Of a DNA stretch of 40,765 nt, positions 1-5,284 are shown one piece after another. Each line of letters starts with the position of its first letter. Within the stretch, counting starts at the first letter, position 1. Source of the stretch: an uncultured Luminiphilus sp. (GTDB taxonomy: Bacteria; Pseudomonadota; Gammaproteobacteria; Pseudomonadales; Halieaceae); the NCBI GenBank assembly GCA_938091425.1, contig CALKHC010000140.1:1-40765 (forward strand). Reading direction: 5' to 3'. The translations under genes were made by a program, and so were the position numbers. The notes below the pieces were generated by a model, which made no database searches, was not told where the DNA came from, and worked only from the letters and a program-made list of their open reading frames with translations.

Positions 1-404
1 TCCTCGCCCAGTAATTCAATCAGAGGGTCCAGTACGAACCGACGTTCGTGGGCGCGAGGATGGGGTAACACCAGATCTGCGGTGGCTATTTTGAGCCTAT
101 CGTATGTCAGTAAGTCGAGGTCGATGCAGCGCTCACCCCAATGTCGGAGGCGTTTTCTGCCCATCTCGGTTTCTGTAGCCAGCAGCGCTGCCAGCAGTCG
201 CTCAGGGGCCATCGATGTTTGAAGCGATAGCGCCGCATTGTAGAAATCTGGCTGGTCCTGAGGACCATGAGGTGGCGACAGGTAAACGCTGGAGGTCGCC
301 TCTACATCAATTTCTGGATGAGCGGCCAACCGCCGATAGGCGACCGTGAGTTGCGTTAGCGGCTCGTCCATATTGGACCCCATGCCCACCAAAGCCTGGC
401 TCAT
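1..404 (-). CDS. folK: FolK, HPPK (partial, C-terminus outside window)
   Basis: 2-amino-4-hydroxy-6-hydroxymethyldihydropteridine pyrophosphokinase transfers pyrophosphate from ATP to the pterin in folate synthesis, in the cytoplasm. Translating from the ATG at 404-402 gives a protein starting MSQALVGMGSNM, the usual FolK beginning (GxGSN). It continues with the signature RHWGERCIDLDLL and the LPHPRAHERRFVLDPL block that closes the active site. About 134 codons are present before the window edge; the family is about 160 residues, so only the C-terminal end is missing. The start overlaps the pcnB stop as ATGA, so the two are translationally coupled. pcnB-folK is a conserved gammaproteobacterial pair. 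Confidence 0.93.
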   Translation of the reverse strand, partial: MSQALVGMGSNMDEPLTQLTVAYRRLAAHPEIDVEATSSVYLSPPHGPQDQPDFYNAALSLQTSMAPERLLAALLATETEMGRKRLRHWGERCIDLDLLTYDRLKIATADLVLPHPRAHERRFVLDPLIELLGE

Positions 405-1690
405 GAATCGCGGTTTCTGCGTCGGCGGCGGGGGGGGCGCTCACCGCGCTCTTCCTGGCGCGCCCGCGCGCTGCCAACTAGCTCCGGATAACGTTTCTGT
501 TGGTCGGTCCAGAATGCGGAGCAGTCGTCACCGAGCGAGTGAGTTTGCTCCCGCAGCAGACGTAAGTCGAATGACGCGCGGAACCAGCGATGGGCCAAGT
601 GGTCTTTGATTTTCTTTTGCTGCATGCGCTCCAGACGAGGTTGAAGATCCCAGATATCCCGCATCGCCAGAGAGAAGCGTTTGGGGATAGCGAGTTGCTG
701 ACACGCTTGTTGGACAATTTGCTGCCCTGCGCTGTGCATGGCTTGGAGGGGCGACTCGCCGCTCGCCGTAAGCTGTTCTGCGCATGCTTGCACTGCGGGC
801 CAGTAAAGCGCGGCAAGCAGAAAAGCGGGCGTGACAGGCCGCCCGTCGGCAACCCGGCGATCCGTGTTGGTGAGCGCGAGCGCCTGCAACTCGAGCGCGG
901 GCTCTCCCTCTATTGCAAAGGAGGCAGTTTCGCCCATCAGGGGGGCGAGCAGTTCGTAATGCCGCAACAGCCTGAAAGTGGGCGCAGAAGAGCCGTTCAT
1001 GAACAGCTTCAGCCACTCATCAAAGAGGCGCGCGGGCGGGATGTCCCTGAGTAACGTTCGGACTGATGCGATCGCCGACTCGGTATCGGATTCCAGATCA
1101 AACTGCAGACGTGCGGCAAACCGCACCACGCGCAACATGCGGACAGGGTCCTCGCGATACCGTTCTGCCGGATCACCGATGATTCGAATGATGCGGTCGA
1201 TAACGTCTGCCTGACCACCCAACTGATCTATGAATTGGTTTGACGAGGTGTCGTAGTAAAGCGCATTAATGGTGAGGTCGCGGCGGCGGGCGTCTTCCTC
1301 AAGTGATCCGTAAACGTTATCTCGCAGTAGCCGACCAGATTGGCTGGCTCGGGCATCCTGCTCGGAGCGGGCCACATCATGACCGCGTCGAAAGGTAGTG
1401 ACCTCAATGATTTCACCTGCTACCCGAACATGAACGATCTGAAAACGGCGTCCAATGATCCGGGCATTGCGAAAGCACTGTTTGATTTGATCAGGGGTGG
1501 CATTGGTGGCGACGTCAAAGTCCTTGGGGCGCTTCCCGAGAAGCAGATCCCGGACTGCACCCCCGACGACATAGGCATCAAAGCCCTCGTCCTGCAGTTG
1601 TTCGACCACGTGCAAGGCCCCCCGGGAAAAATCCGAGGACTCGAAAACCGGTGGAGCCAGCATCTTCGACGTCAAGGAACTGATATCCAC
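401..1690 (-). CDS. pcnB: Poly(A) polymerase I
   Basis: Adds 3' poly(A) tails to RNA and so promotes degradation of mRNA fragments and small RNAs. The nucleotidyltransferase head is clear: VGGAVRDLLLG at about residues 42-52, then the metal-binding DFD (57-59), the FRNARIIGRRFQIVHV block and EVTTFRRG. The RNA-binding region and a basic C-terminal tail (RRRRRNR) follow, as in the family. About 429 residues, normal. The start is uncertain: a GTG at 1690 and an ATG at 1663 are both in frame, neither has a good Shine-Dalgarno, and the frame is open for a further 18 codons upstream. E. coli pcnB uses a rare AUU start, so weak initiation may be a family trait. It lies about 100 bases downstream of the candidate small RNA. 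Confidence 0.95.
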   Translation of the reverse strand: MDISSLTSKMLAPPVFESSDFSRGALHVVEQLQDEGFDAYVVGGAVRDLLLGKRPKDFDVATNATPDQIKQCFRNARIIGRRFQIVHVRVAGEIIEVTTFRRGHDVARSEQDARASQSGRLLRDNVYGSLEEDARRRDLTINALYYDTSSNQFIDQLGGQADVIDRIIRIIGDPAERYREDPVRMLRVVRFAARLQFDLESDTESAIASVRTLLRDIPPARLFDEWLKLFMNGSSAPTFRLLRHYELLAPLMGETASFAIEGEPALELQALALTNTDRRVADGRPVTPAFLLAALYWPAVQACAEQLTASGESPLQAMHSAGQQIVQQACQQLAIPKRFSLAMRDIWDLQPRLERMQQKKIKDHLAHRWFRASFDLRLLREQTHSLGDDCSAFWTDQQKRYPELVGSARARQEERGERPPRRRRRNRDS

Positions 1691-1784
1691 TGTGATACGG
1701 GAGTTCGAGGAATACGTCGCTGCCGTCCAGCGAACGTCGCATCAAGGGAAGCTAGCGGGAAAAAAGAAGTAGGTGGCCCAGAAA

Positions 1785-1869
1785 GAAACATGGGGAAGTT
1801 TCCTTCCCCACCCAGGTCCGTTATGACATCATTTTTTTTATTCGGCCGATTATTATTATTCCGACTCTG
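1785..1869 (-). ncRNA. Candidate CrcZ-like Hfq-sequestering small RNA
   Basis: In Pseudomonas the cbrB-pcnB gap encodes CrcZ, a CbrB/sigma54-driven RNA that titrates Hfq/Crc through A-rich AANAANAA motifs and relieves carbon catabolite repression. Here the same gap holds, in order on the minus strand, activator half-sites, a sigma54 promoter (1895-1880), then a predicted RNA of roughly 80-90 nt. It contains AATAATAATAAT at 1860-1849 and AATAAAAAAAAT at 1842-1831. Both fit the (ARN)n pattern bound by the Hfq distal face and the AANAANAA motif. The RNA would end with the GAAA-loop hairpin at 1809-1792. It is far shorter than Pseudomonas CrcZ (several hundred nt). Start and end are inferred from motif spacing, and transcription is not shown. 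Confidence 0.6.
1792..1809 (-). terminator. GAAA-tetraloop hairpin, candidate terminator
   Basis: On the minus strand a perfect 7-bp stem GGGGAAG/CTTCCCC encloses a GAAA loop and is followed by the U-rich but interrupted stretch ATGTTTCTTTCT. It could end the small RNA, or the cbrB transcript, before pcnB. The U-tract is imperfect, so read-through into pcnB is likely. Confidence 0.5.
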
Positions 1870-1879
1870 ATGTAATAAC

Positions 1880-1895
1880 TGCAGGTCACATGCCA
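1880..1895 (-). promoter_or_regulatory. Sigma54 (-24/-12) promoter
   Basis: Read on the minus strand the sequence is TGGCATGTGACCTGCA. Against the sigma54 consensus TGGCACG-N4-TTGCA it differs at two positions and keeps the essential GG-N10-GC (GG at 1894-1893, GC at 1882-1881). Transcription would start near 1869. The gene just upstream encodes a sigma54 activator, which makes a chance match less likely. Confidence 0.75.
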
Positions 1896-1939
1896 TATTC
1901 AAAAAAGTGTTAAAAAACATTGCGTTGTCCAGTTTTTGA

Positions 1940-1951
1940 CCGGATATCCGG
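1940..1951. promoter_or_regulatory. 12-bp perfect palindrome, possible operator
   Basis: CCGGATATCCGG is a perfect palindrome lying between the GTTAC half-sites (1969-1996) and the sigma54 promoter (1880-1895). It could bind a dimeric regulator or be chance. No known operator is recognised. Confidence 0.25.
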
Positions 1952-1968
1952 GCCGCTAAGACCGGGGA

Positions 1969-1996
1969 GTGTTACGTAACTGCACCACAGTGTTAC
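1969..1996 (-). promoter_or_regulatory. Candidate upstream activator sites (GTTAC half-sites)
   Basis: Contains the perfect palindrome GTTACGTAAC (1971-1980) and a second half-site. The 7-mer GTGTTAC occurs at 1969-1975 and again at 1990-1996, 21 bases apart, i.e. two helical turns on the same face. They lie about 75-100 bases upstream of the -24 element, the normal distance for an enhancer-binding protein, and just after the cbrB stop. GTGTTAC also occurs upstream of cbrB on the minus strand (3442-3436). Assignment to CbrB is inference. Confidence 0.5.
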
Positions 1997-2020: not shown

Positions 2021-3370
2021 TCAAGCGGATTTTTGCTTTTGGCGGGGTATGCCAAACCGTTGTCGCCGCTCCCACAGACACTTGCGACTGATGCCGAGTT
2101 TTTGTGCCAGTTCCGTCTCATTCATTGCGTCCTGATGCTGCAGCACAAATCGCTGAAAGTAGTCCTCCAGCGACAGCTCGCCGCTGGCGTCATCCGGCGA
2201 CACTCCTACAACGGGCAGGTCATTCGAGCTCTGCTGGCTTGTTTGTGATGAAGCGGTCGCAGACAACGAAATATGTAGCTCTGCGCCGTGGGACATTACC
2301 AGACTGCGCTCGATCACATTTTGCAATTCGCGAACATTTCCTGGCCAGAGATGTGCCGCCAGAGCGTTGCGGCTGTGTTCAGATAGCGGCTTGGCTGGGA
2401 CACCCAGTTTGGCCGCCTGTTTTTCGATAAACCAATTCGCCATGGCGACAACATCGCCCTCACGCTCGCGCAGCGGAGGAATGTCGAGTCTCAGTACATC
2501 GATCCGATAGAACAGGTCCTCCCGAAACTCGCTTTGCGCTGCCAGTTCTGCAAGGTTACGGTGGGTGGCGCAGATGAGACGGACATCGACTCGCTTGCTG
2601 GTTACTGAGCCGATTCTGCGAATCTCTCCCTCCTGCATAAACCGTAGCAACCGGGCTTGAGCAGCGAGTGGTAATTCACCGATTTCATCCAAAAACAGGG
2701 TGCCGCCGTCAGCAGCCTCAATCAAACCAAGCCGATTAGCGGTTGCACCCGTGAAAGCCCCTTTCTCGTAGCCGAACAATTCCGATTCAATGAGCGTTTC
2801 GGGAATAGCGGCGCAGTTGACCGTGACGATAGGTTTGTCACCCCGCAAACTGATGCGATGTACTTGCCTCGCAGCCAGTTCCTTGCCAGTCCCTGTCTCC
2901 CCCACTATCAGTACCGTAGAGTCTGTCCGCGCGACACGATCAATCGTGTCCTCAAGCGTCCGCATCACCGAACAGTCTTCACTGGAAAAGTAGTCGTTTT
3001 GCCCGGCTTTGGCGTGAAATGTTTTATGCTCGGCGCACAAATGCGAGACCCAATCGGTAAGCTGCGGGACGTCCGCCCCACGATCGCAGACATCAACCAC
3101 GCCGGAGCGGGCTGCCCTTAACACGTTTTGCGGGTGTGATACGGGCAACAGGGCGGCAAGCGGGATGGGCCACACCGTTCGATTCACCGCTGCTAGGTCG
3201 GCAAAAGCGGGGTGCTGTCCTGCAATCACCAGGTCGCATTTCGGTTGCCATTGAGCGAGTCCTCGCTCGTCTGCGGGGATATCAGTTAGCACCGCGACCC
3301 CGGCGCGATGACAGGCTTCCTTCAAATCATCCAGCAATGCCGGATCTTTCTCGATTAGTTGGATTCGCAT
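2021..3370 (-). CDS. cbrB: CbrB-like sigma54 activator with degenerate receiver
   Basis: Sigma54-dependent transcriptional activator of the NtrC type, about 449 residues from the ATG at 3370 (an upstream GTG at 3442 is also in frame). Residues 1-115 form a receiver-like domain. The AAA+ domain has Walker A GETGTGKE (157-164), the sigma54-contacting GAFTGA (204-209) and Walker B LFLDE (225-229), and a Fis-type helix-turn-helix ends [17 protein letters not shown]. That ending and the place between gluQ and pcnB match CbrB of Pseudomonas, the carbon/nitrogen-balance regulator that drives crcZ. The receiver is abnormal: after DLV the expected acceptor Asp is replaced (DLVIAGQHP, Gly at about 51), and the usual Lys is not seen. 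The partner kinase gene cbrA is absent. An alternative is another orphan NtrC-family activator, but the context favours CbrB. Confidence 0.82.
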
Positions 3371-3461
3371 GGGATCTCGCGCTGTCCTCGGGATCGGCAA
3401 TGTTACCGCCGGCAGGCTGTCTTGCGAGTTAAAAAGTAACACATTTCCTGTTAGGTGTTGA

Positions 3462-4302
3462 TTATCTTCTCATGGACCAGTTTTCGGTAGCGTGCTCGAG
3501 AATCTCGGGCACACGGCGCGCGGTGCTGGGTGGCGCCTGCTGCTGCAAGTGCTGCAAGACGTGGCGAAGGTTTTGCTCTGGTTGGTGAATGTCCAGCGGT
3601 GGGGCACCGGTTTGCTTACTGAGCTTGTTGCCCGCCTGGTCCATCAAAACAGCCACATGGGCGTAAGAAGGTGACTCCAGGCCGAGGAGGTGCTGCAGCC
3701 AGCGCTGCCGATGTGTGGATTCCAGCAAGTCTGCGCCCCTAACCACGTGAGTGAAGAGAGGTTGGGCATCATCGATCGCTGCGGCAAGTTGATAGGCGTA
3801 GAGACCATCGCGACGCTTCACAATGAAGTCCTGTGCCGCATTCTTGATGTGCGCAAGCTGCTCCCCTAAAAACCGGTCGTTAAACCCTCTCATCCTCTCA
3901 GGCTCTGCTCTGACCCGGAGACTATGCGGCGTCTCACCACTGATGTTTTGGTCTTGGCAGCGCTGCCCGCAACCGCCGTCGGCGGAGAGCGTAGCCCGGG
4001 TACACAGGCATCGAAACAGCCACCCTGATGACATCAGTTGATCAATTGCGCTGTCGTAGTGTGGCGAGGATTCGGATTGGTAAATCACCGGGCCGTCCCA
4101 AATCAGCCCGTGAGCACTCAGGGCCTCTGTGATGGCGTCGATGCTCCCCGCGACGGCTCTGGGAGGATCGATGTCGTCGACTCGCAGCTGCCACTGTCCA
4201 TTATGGTGCCGGGCATCGAGGAAGCTGGCTAATGCAGCGACCAAAGAACCCGCATGGAGCGGTCCGGTCGGAGAGGGCGCAAAGCGCCCGCGATAGGGTC
4301 AT
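3462..4302 (-). CDS. gluQ: GluQ, glutamyl-Q tRNA(Asp) synthetase, frame break at start
   Basis: Attaches glutamate to queuosine in the anticodon of tRNA(Asp). It is a truncated GluRS paralogue without the anticodon-binding part. The HIGH-type motif region [13 protein letters not shown], the zinc-site segment [18 protein letters not shown] and the KMSKS-like KLSKQ are all present. The N-terminal motif is encoded in frame only after a TGA: the frame runs TGA-CCC-TAT-CGC-GGG-CGC-TTT with no start codon before the motif. The ATG at 4302-4300 is in the next frame. Removing one C from the CCC at 4298-4296 would give [13 protein letters not shown], a perfect family start. A TTG at 4244 is the first in-frame start codon but would delete the catalytic motif. 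So there is a one-base insertion (assembly error, mutation or slippage). It lies 25 bases after dksA. Confidence 0.88.
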
Positions 4303-4327: not shown

Positions 4328-5119
4328 TCAACCCAGCTCCTGCCGCTCCTTGATCTCAGCCAGAGTCTTACAGTCGATGCACATGGTCGCTGTGGGTCTC
4401 GCCTCGAGCCGCTGAATACCAATCTCGATACCACAGGCATCACAATAGCCGTAGTCGTCGTTTTGCAATCGGTCCAGCGTGGAGTCGATCTTCTTGATTA
4501 ACTTTCGCTCGCGGTCTCGCGTGCGCAACTCGAGACTGAATTCCTCTTCCTGCGTGGCACGATCGGCTGGATCTGGGAAGTTGGCGGCCTCATCTTTCAT
4601 GTGCGAAACGGTGCGCGTGACCTCATCAACCAATTCGCCGCGCCAATTGAGCAAAATACCTCTGAAGTGCTCGATTTGCTCATCGTTCATGTAGCTCTCG
4701 CCGCGACCCGGCTTGTAGGGCTTGAAGTCGTCAAATTTCTGGAGTTCTCCCACAGCCCGCGCCACTTTCCCCGGGCTTTTCTTATTGGCCACTTTTTTTG
4801 CAGGTGCCTTTTTCTTGGCAGGTGCTTTTTTGGCTACCGCCTTTTTCTTGGCAGGTACTTTTTTGGCTACCGCCTTTTTCTTGACGGGTGCCTTTTTAGC
4901 TAAGGCCTTTTTCTTGGCAGGTGCCTTTTTAGCTACGGCCTTTTTCTTGGCAGGTGCCTTTTTAGCTACGGCCTTTTTCTTGGCAGGTGCCTTTTTAGCT
5001 ACGGCTTTTTTCTTCGCAGGTGCCTTTTTGGCTACGACCTTTTTCTTGGCGGGTACTTTTTTAGCGGCGGCTTTTTTCTTCGCAGGTGCCTTTTTGGCAG
5101 CAGATTTTCGACTGGCCAT
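4328..5119 (-). CDS. dksA: DksA with histone H1-like lysine-rich N-terminal repeats
   Basis: RNA polymerase secondary-channel factor that works with ppGpp in stringent control. The C-terminal ~150 residues are a normal DksA. Conserved blocks include [14 protein letters not shown], the coiled-coil tip DPADRA with its Asp/Ala residues, [21 protein letters not shown], and the zinc ribbon with CDAC and CIDC. What is unusual is an N-terminal extension of about 115 residues made of nine 11-residue units of the type [11 protein letters not shown] (residues 8-106). It resembles the tails of bacterial histone H1-like and AlgP proteins and would bind DNA or RNA. Start chosen at the ATG 5119 ([10 protein letters not shown]), with AGGAA about 10 bases upstream; a longer in-frame start at 5167 lacks support. 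About 263 residues against about 150 for E. coli DksA. Divergent from sfsA. Confidence 0.95.
4802..5098 (-). repeat. Nine 33-bp coding tandem repeats in dksA
   Basis: Nine in-frame 33-base units encode variants of [11 protein letters not shown]. Units in the middle are nearly identical at the DNA level (blocks around 4900-5010), and outer units have diverged. The repeat number could change by slippage without breaking the frame. Confidence 0.9.
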
Positions 5120-5284
5120 GGTGATGTCGTTCCTCTTAAATGTCCCGGCAGCCAATGCCGTGGTCAATTGGGCTCGGGAAGCTATCAGACTTCACCGGTT
5201 GGTGCTACCGCTGATTTTGCCCTGACTTAAGTGCATTGCGGGGGCATTGGCGAGTTTGGTGATGATCATGACGAGACAAATGGT

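Follow-up and report, generated by a model that had tools for sequence, protein, structure and literature searches.

The best described RNA of the kind considered here is CrcZ, characterized in PMC4063720 as a 407-nt Hfq decoy with six (ARN)n repeats, n>=4; decoys of the CsrB/RsmZ type resemble it in titrating an RNA-binding protein via repeated motifs, and differ in the protein and in the motif (PMC4063720). A review (PMC8871633) presents CbrAB as unique to Pseudomonadaceae and describes the cbrA-cbrB-crcZ arrangement only in Pseudomonas and Azotobacter, and PMC6296734 likewise gives CbrAB as restricted to Pseudomonadaceae. In the open-licence literature we found no report of CrcZ in Marinobacter or Cellvibrio; earlier reports may exist elsewhere. 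The cbrB-RNA-pcnB unit described below is present across the Halieaceae, a family of marine bacteria, and in other families of the same order, and the origin and the core of the pathway therefore become open to comparative study.

The window analysed here, a stretch of 40,765 nucleotides, is a contig of a 1.69-Mb, 85% complete genome of an uncultured Luminiphilus sp.; throughout, the genus is Luminiphilus (57 genomes) and the family is Halieaceae (140 genomes). On the minus strand the genes are ordered dksA, gluQ, a cbrB-like activator gene, a gap and pcnB (Table 1), and the minus-strand ORF after pcnB is presumably folK. Comparison of the CbrB protein with plasmids gave no match above 60% identity. 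The DksA gene (4328-5167, minus strand) contains long N-terminal Lys/Ala/Pro-rich repeats (4806-5095, 33-bp unit, 8.8 copies), and its product also matches a histone H1-like family with a score below that family's cut-off.

Table 1. Features of the cbrB-pcnB region of the window (positions in the window).
Feature	Position	Strand	Basis or remark
pcnB, downstream neighbour of the RNA	401..1690	-	TIGR01942 above cut-off
Predicted sRNA, ~89 nt	1780..1868	-	boundaries placed from promoter and hairpin
Terminator-like hairpin GUGGGGAAG-GAAA-CUUCCCCAU, then U-rich tail to ~1780	1790..1811	-	sequence
GGACCTGG / GGACCUGG element, GACCTGG-containing, directly before the hairpin	1812..1819	-	sequence
A-rich motif 2, AATAAAAAAAAT, AAU AAA AAA AAU, four ARN triplets	1831..1842	-	sequence
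A-rich motif 1, AATAATAATAAT, (AAU)4, four ARN triplets, Hfq distal-face type	1849..1860	-	sequence
sigma54 -24/-12 promoter TGGCATGTGACCTGCA, exact GG-N10-GC	1880..1895	-	TGGCAY-N6-TGC pattern in 50/50 family gaps
CbrB-type activator subsites	GTAACA 1996-1991 and GTAACA 1975-1970 (21 bp apart); GTTAC 1980-1976 adjoins the second	-	sequence
CbrB-like sigma54 activator gene	2021..3442	-	AAA+ with GAFTGA and CbrB-type HTH kept; no recognisable receiver domain
gluQ, directly upstream of cbrB; cbrA occupies this slot in related genera	3462..4244	-	gene-order comparison

To place this gap among its relatives, we searched the 140 family genomes with CbrB (129 match at E<=1e-70) and examined the 50 best-scoring loci of these 129 cbrB-bearing genomes, the window included. 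In all 50, pcnB comes next in the same orientation, with ~290-640 nt between the cbrB and pcnB matches, and the promoter, the ARN runs and the GACCTGG hairpin follow in a fixed order. The distance from TGGCAY-N6-TGC to GACCTGG is 75-85 nt in every gap; the first module contains two ARN runs (>=3 triplets) in 49 loci and three in one, and a second GACCTGG module lies downstream in 11. From 49 distinct sequences taken from the 50 loci we built a covariance model, R1, which matches the window (itself one of the building sequences) at 1775-1871 with 8.8e-17. This search of the relatives recovered the element in 131 of the 140 family genomes, including 78/78 of those that are >=90% complete and <=5% contaminated; as many as 49 of the 131 are expected matches, having supplied the sequences of the model. 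In the other nine of the 140 R1 has no match. The initial annotation had proposed that the gap reproduces the architecture of Pseudomonas crcZ in the same genomic slot, and both the elements and the slot were borne out, with the -24/-12 element (50/50) and the A-rich motifs kept in the gaps examined. The RNA is not peculiar to this genome: it occurs throughout the family, and related elements exist elsewhere in the order, in other families. The strong evidence for the element is this conservation rather than chance statistics or fold, and it leaves a candidate compact, CrcZ-like, sigma54-driven RNA in the crcZ slot well supported.

Analysis of the individual elements agrees with this picture. 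A GTAACA starting 79-90 nt before the sigma54 element is found in 50/50 family loci, and at least two CbrB subsites are present in 38 of them, against 0.2 expected from base-composition shuffles; according to PMC6296734, TGTTAC is the published forward CbrB subsite and GTAACA its reverse. Both half-sites named initially, GTAACA and GTTAC, exist in the window, but the conserved sites are the GTAACA pair, whose members most close relatives have at a distance of 21 bp, and not GTTAC, which at the position listed in Table 1 is absent from the closest relatives (L006-L010). The sigma54 promoter, first written as TGGCAT-N6-CTGCA, keeps its exact GG-N10-GC, but has a spacer of N5 instead of N6; the usual 12-nt distance to the promoter puts the predicted start at ~1869-1867. 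By itself the sigma54 pattern is modestly unusual in the window (1 observed vs 0.20 expected), and two (ARN)4 runs 6 nt apart are rare there (1 observed vs 0.01 expected). The two A-rich motifs of the Hfq/Crc type and the GAAA-loop hairpin were both located as claimed, and the predicted length is in line with the 80-90 nt first proposed for an RNA with two motifs.

In the 3' part of the predicted RNA, GGACCTGG is found in 50/50 family gaps and GGACCUGG is invariant in 49/49 rows of the family alignment; a GACCTGG-like sequence recurs across the order, and GACCTGG is absent from the gap of the Pseudomonas-type locus L055. This pattern would fit a base-pairing sRNA in which GGACCUGG is the seed for target mRNAs and the ARN runs merely recruit Hfq. 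We regard such a function as quite improbable, as two of 12 additional family loci deviate from GGACCUGG (GGATCTGG in L070 and GAACCTGG in L086), it adjoins the terminator stem and may be structural or protein-binding, and both ARN runs are about as conserved as the supposed seed. We note that GGACCUGG, invariant as it is in the alignment, lies outside the hairpin. A small ORF, AUG GAC CUG, seen in two-module relatives, was dropped because the compact clade has ACG in place of AUG.

For the hairpin itself, the four G-C core pairs are kept in 34/34 compact rows. Its inner arms covary across the order: among 106 loci, 6 without a flank were left out and 92 of the remaining 100 have the hairpin pattern (8 do not), with 22 distinct arms; pairing with the own partner reaches 2.95 of 4 against 2.03 for permuted partners, and 0/5000 permutations were as good, a comparison uncorrected for relatedness. 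A hairpin that exposes motif 1 in its loop shows covariation among the 13 members of wider spacing (29/2000 permutations as good) and none among the 37 compact members (1983/2000 as good). The 89-nt RNA as a whole folds no better than shuffles (z -0.91). An extended lower stem, in which CAUAACGGA pairs with the U-rich tail, appears in several folds, and was set aside because its covariation is not beyond shuffles.

Comparison with Rfam places the RNA at some distance from CrcZ. At the gathering threshold nothing in the window matches; in a relaxed search the CrcZ model (RF01675) reaches 11.4 bits, against a gathering score of 95, over model positions 281-373 of 398. A match to sR35 (13.7 bits, above CrcZ in the window and overlapping the RNA) belongs to an unrelated family and was dismissed as a chance hit of a snoRNA model. 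Among 14 chosen family loci, mainly those with long gaps, the CrcZ model hits 13 (E<=5) with 16.9-30.8 bits, seven with the 3' module alone and six with the whole model and large gaps, all far below 95 bits. In 321 genomes of the class a single locus exceeds the cut-off, L055, with 306.8 bits between cbrB and pcnB. Weak matches of 20-30 bits at four loci in other class genomes (L056-L059) were taken as chance because neither cbrB nor pcnB is nearby. Since scores of 20-30 bits thus also occur away from cbrB, kinship to CrcZ rests on the slot and the promoter and not on the score.

On sequence grounds the resemblance to CrcZ comprises the slot between cbrB and pcnB, CbrB subsites ahead of a sigma54 promoter, ARN runs of at least four triplets and a terminal GGGGA hairpin; in the Rfam alignment the 3' module of CrcZ runs from a hairpin with an A-rich loop through a single-stranded A-rich segment to a GGGGA hairpin. 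In contrast to the 407 nt and six ARN runs reported for CrcZ in PMC4063720, the window RNA is predicted, from its promoter and hairpin, to have ~89 nt and two runs, and so lacks the length near 400 nt typical of CrcZ. Unlike CrcZ it also carries GGACCUGG (GACCTGG is absent from the cbrB-pcnB gap of L055), it scores under the Rfam gathering threshold, and it occurs in a genus without a CbrA match. Among Hfq decoys of the CrcZ type, the two-site RNA of Luminiphilus may be close to the smallest.

Outside the family the element mostly keeps its neighbourhood. Across the order R1 matches 64 of 293 genomes, of which 12 belong to this family and 52 lie outside it, and in 49 of these 52 a match lies between cbrB and pcnB, although in one of the 49 the sigma54 element was not found in the gap by pattern. 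Two of the remaining three have it beside cbrB only, near a contig end (G636, G500), and the third (G569) at another site, a 3-kb contig, accompanied by a sigma54 element of its own. Among 321 genomes from across the class, R1 matches only two. The window's own genome accounts for one; the second match, the sole one outside the order (L195 in G302), has neither cbrB nor pcnB near and was rejected. R1 fails to match the true CrcZ in G301 and therefore detects the Pseudomonas form poorly, while G679, of the same family as G301, does match. We also searched a collection of 84,980 species with an independent pattern for the 3' element, GACCTGGRTGGGGAAG-N3-9-CTTCCCC. It is present in 68 stretches, of which 63 have it between cbrB and pcnB, two beside cbrB only, three beside pcnB only and none elsewhere. 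One stretch recorded as Verrucomicrobiaceae (L106, MAG RYN_599) has gluQ, a long kinase-sized frame, cbrB, the RNA and pcnB; it is probably a misassigned contig. Most of the other stretches with the pattern are records of Luminiphilus, Haliea, Halioglobus or Halieaceae.

Such constancy of position raises an explanation in cis, namely that pcnB has in this element a sigma54-controlled 5' leader or attenuator: transcription would begin at the promoter already described, and the hairpin and A-rich sites would, together with Hfq, tune the expression of pcnB, which encodes poly(A) polymerase. The 50 loci and the 63 flanked stretches do all have the element upstream of pcnB and on the same strand as it, and in the window only 100 nt separate the hairpin end from pcnB, with a U-rich tail that is interrupted and hence an imperfect terminator tail. 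Against this, the gap contains a tandem pair of sigma54 elements and RNAs in several other families; four loci (L201, L216, L232 and L233, the last three being short stretches) carry RNA copies that have a sigma54 element and a hairpin of their own and no cbrB or pcnB near, as for free-standing RNAs; and the sequence past the RNA tail varies among relatives. We therefore think a pcnB leader unlikely. Short tandem repeats between the RNA and pcnB were seen by eye in L021 and L013 (cagaccctatt-like and ttaacactttcccggcc-like).

The tandem units are, judging from their sequences, putative CrcZ/CrcY-like genes outside Pseudomonadaceae. Second copies of this type are known as CrcY in P. putida and Azotobacter and as CrcX in P. 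syringae, and among the relatives across the order there are likewise second copies, some in tandem and some dispersed, that have sigma54 elements of their own. Unlike the carriers of CrcY or CrcX, the window's incomplete genome has one R1 match only. At 13 loci (e.g. L203, L209 and L087-L089) we observed at least two sigma54-like elements, placed in the cbrB-pcnB gap or on the downstream side of cbrB, and where the sequence is printed these are mostly followed by A-rich runs and a hairpin.

The proteins with which such an RNA would act are largely present. RpoN is encoded in the window's genome and in 50 of the 57 genus genomes, and Hfq in the window's genome and in 53 of the 57; the Hfq translation has Y25, G29 and K31, the latter two of which we take to be distal-face residues. 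Y25 is given as a distal-face residue in PMC4063720. Proteins of the exonuclease III/Crc fold occur in 138 of the 140 family genomes; in the window's 85%-complete genome no PF03372 protein of the Crc/exonuclease-III type was found. In one genus member (L190) the protein aligns to Crc (4jg3) at 267 bits and to 2jc5, which we take to be a nuclease of Neisseria, at 318. In Crc numbering it keeps K139, R140, R141 and E142, and has E155, P196, A229, A230 and Q231 in place of K155, R196, R229, R230 and F231, the residues compared being those discussed in PMC6422490.

Taken with the conserved elements, these proteins make it probable, in our judgement, that the gap encodes a short CrcZ-like Hfq-decoy RNA whose synthesis depends on sigma54 and on a CbrB that acts independently of phosphorylation. 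From the GTAACA subsites, CbrB would activate sigma54 RNA polymerase, and transcription would proceed for ~89 nt as far as the terminator hairpin. Both (ARN)4 runs, as their motif and the presence of Hfq suggest, would bind the distal face of Hfq and keep it, with or without a Crc-like partner, off A-rich sites near ribosome-binding sites, so that repressed mRNAs would be released through titration of Hfq; transcription, Hfq binding, the decoy action and the connection to carbon are the presumptive parts of this scheme. The initial proposal of a minimal catabolite-repression decoy thus holds as far as a compact CrcZ-like sigma54 RNA supported by conservation is concerned, but the usual wiring cannot be assumed, with CbrA unmatched in the genus, no recognisable receiver domain in the window's CbrB and a Crc-type protein not found in the window's 85%-complete genome.

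The input signal is the least certain step in the genus, from which CbrA, the sensor kinase that controls such RNAs in Pseudomonas, appears to be missing. With CbrA of Seongchinamella unica (L157; HisKA and HATPase in Pfam) as the query and a cut-off of E<=1e-60, we found matches in 75 of the 140 family genomes, all of them outside the window's genus (75 of 83 other family genomes) and 0 in the 57 genus genomes; a much diverged CbrA encoded elsewhere would escape this cut-off. CbrB was aligned from 134 loci, some of which represent the same genome from two collections. Where gluQ and cbrB are more than 2.5 kb apart (16 loci, 15 scored), the acceptor is Asp in SDLRLPG in 15/15. Where gluQ lies within 400 bp of cbrB (55 loci, 48 scored), the normal motif occurs in none, and the position is Gly in 22, Glu in 20 and Asp in an unrelated context in 6. 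A further 63 loci without a known gluQ-cbrB spacing have 42 Asp, 3 Glu and 1 Gly, with 17 unscored. The window's CbrB has Gly at the aligned acceptor position and no match to the PF00072 receiver in Pfam. Compared with CbrB of L055 it shows 13% identity in the N-terminal part, 58% in the AAA domain and 92% in the HTH, and its HTH is 88-100% identical to that of 11 relatives compared.

As CbrA is unmatched and the acceptor motif of CbrB is gone, the activator must work without phosphorylation in the genus, and the level of the RNA therefore probably depends on how much CbrB is present or on some other signal. A kinase-less CbrB is plausible, since CbrB of P. putida is described as barely dependent on phosphorylation (PMC6296734). 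The same two losses, CbrA unmatched in 57/57 genus genomes and the acceptor motif gone, could also mean that the promoter and the RNA are a relic, decaying after the loss of CbrA and of the CbrB receiver. We hold this to be very improbable: the promoter, the ARN runs and the GGACCUGG hairpin are intact in the genus loci examined and the AAA and HTH domains of CbrB are conserved, which looks like purifying selection and not decay.

The phosphorylation-independent, CbrB-driven decoy may be part of something broader, in a reading that is possible and in our estimate falls somewhat short of probable. The CbrB-sigma54-RNA unit would be an order-wide Hfq-titration switch, older and wider than the Pseudomonas CbrAB-Crc system; in Luminiphilus the kinase would have been lost, and CbrB would have exchanged its acceptor Asp for Glu in certain lineages and seen its receiver degenerate in others. 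What is left would be a minimal decoy with two sites whose synthesis depends on an unphosphorylated activator, and the unit would either answer to a new input or give a constant output. The Luminiphilus version, with CbrA unmatched, offers a natural test of CbrB function without phosphorylation. At several loci with no CbrA beside cbrB (L024, L026, L099, L122 and others) the receiver motif of CbrB looks normal apart from a Glu in place of the acceptor Asp. Such a substitution at a phospho-acceptor often mimics phosphorylation. CbrB of HTCC2080, with Glu at the acceptor, still matches the Pfam receiver.
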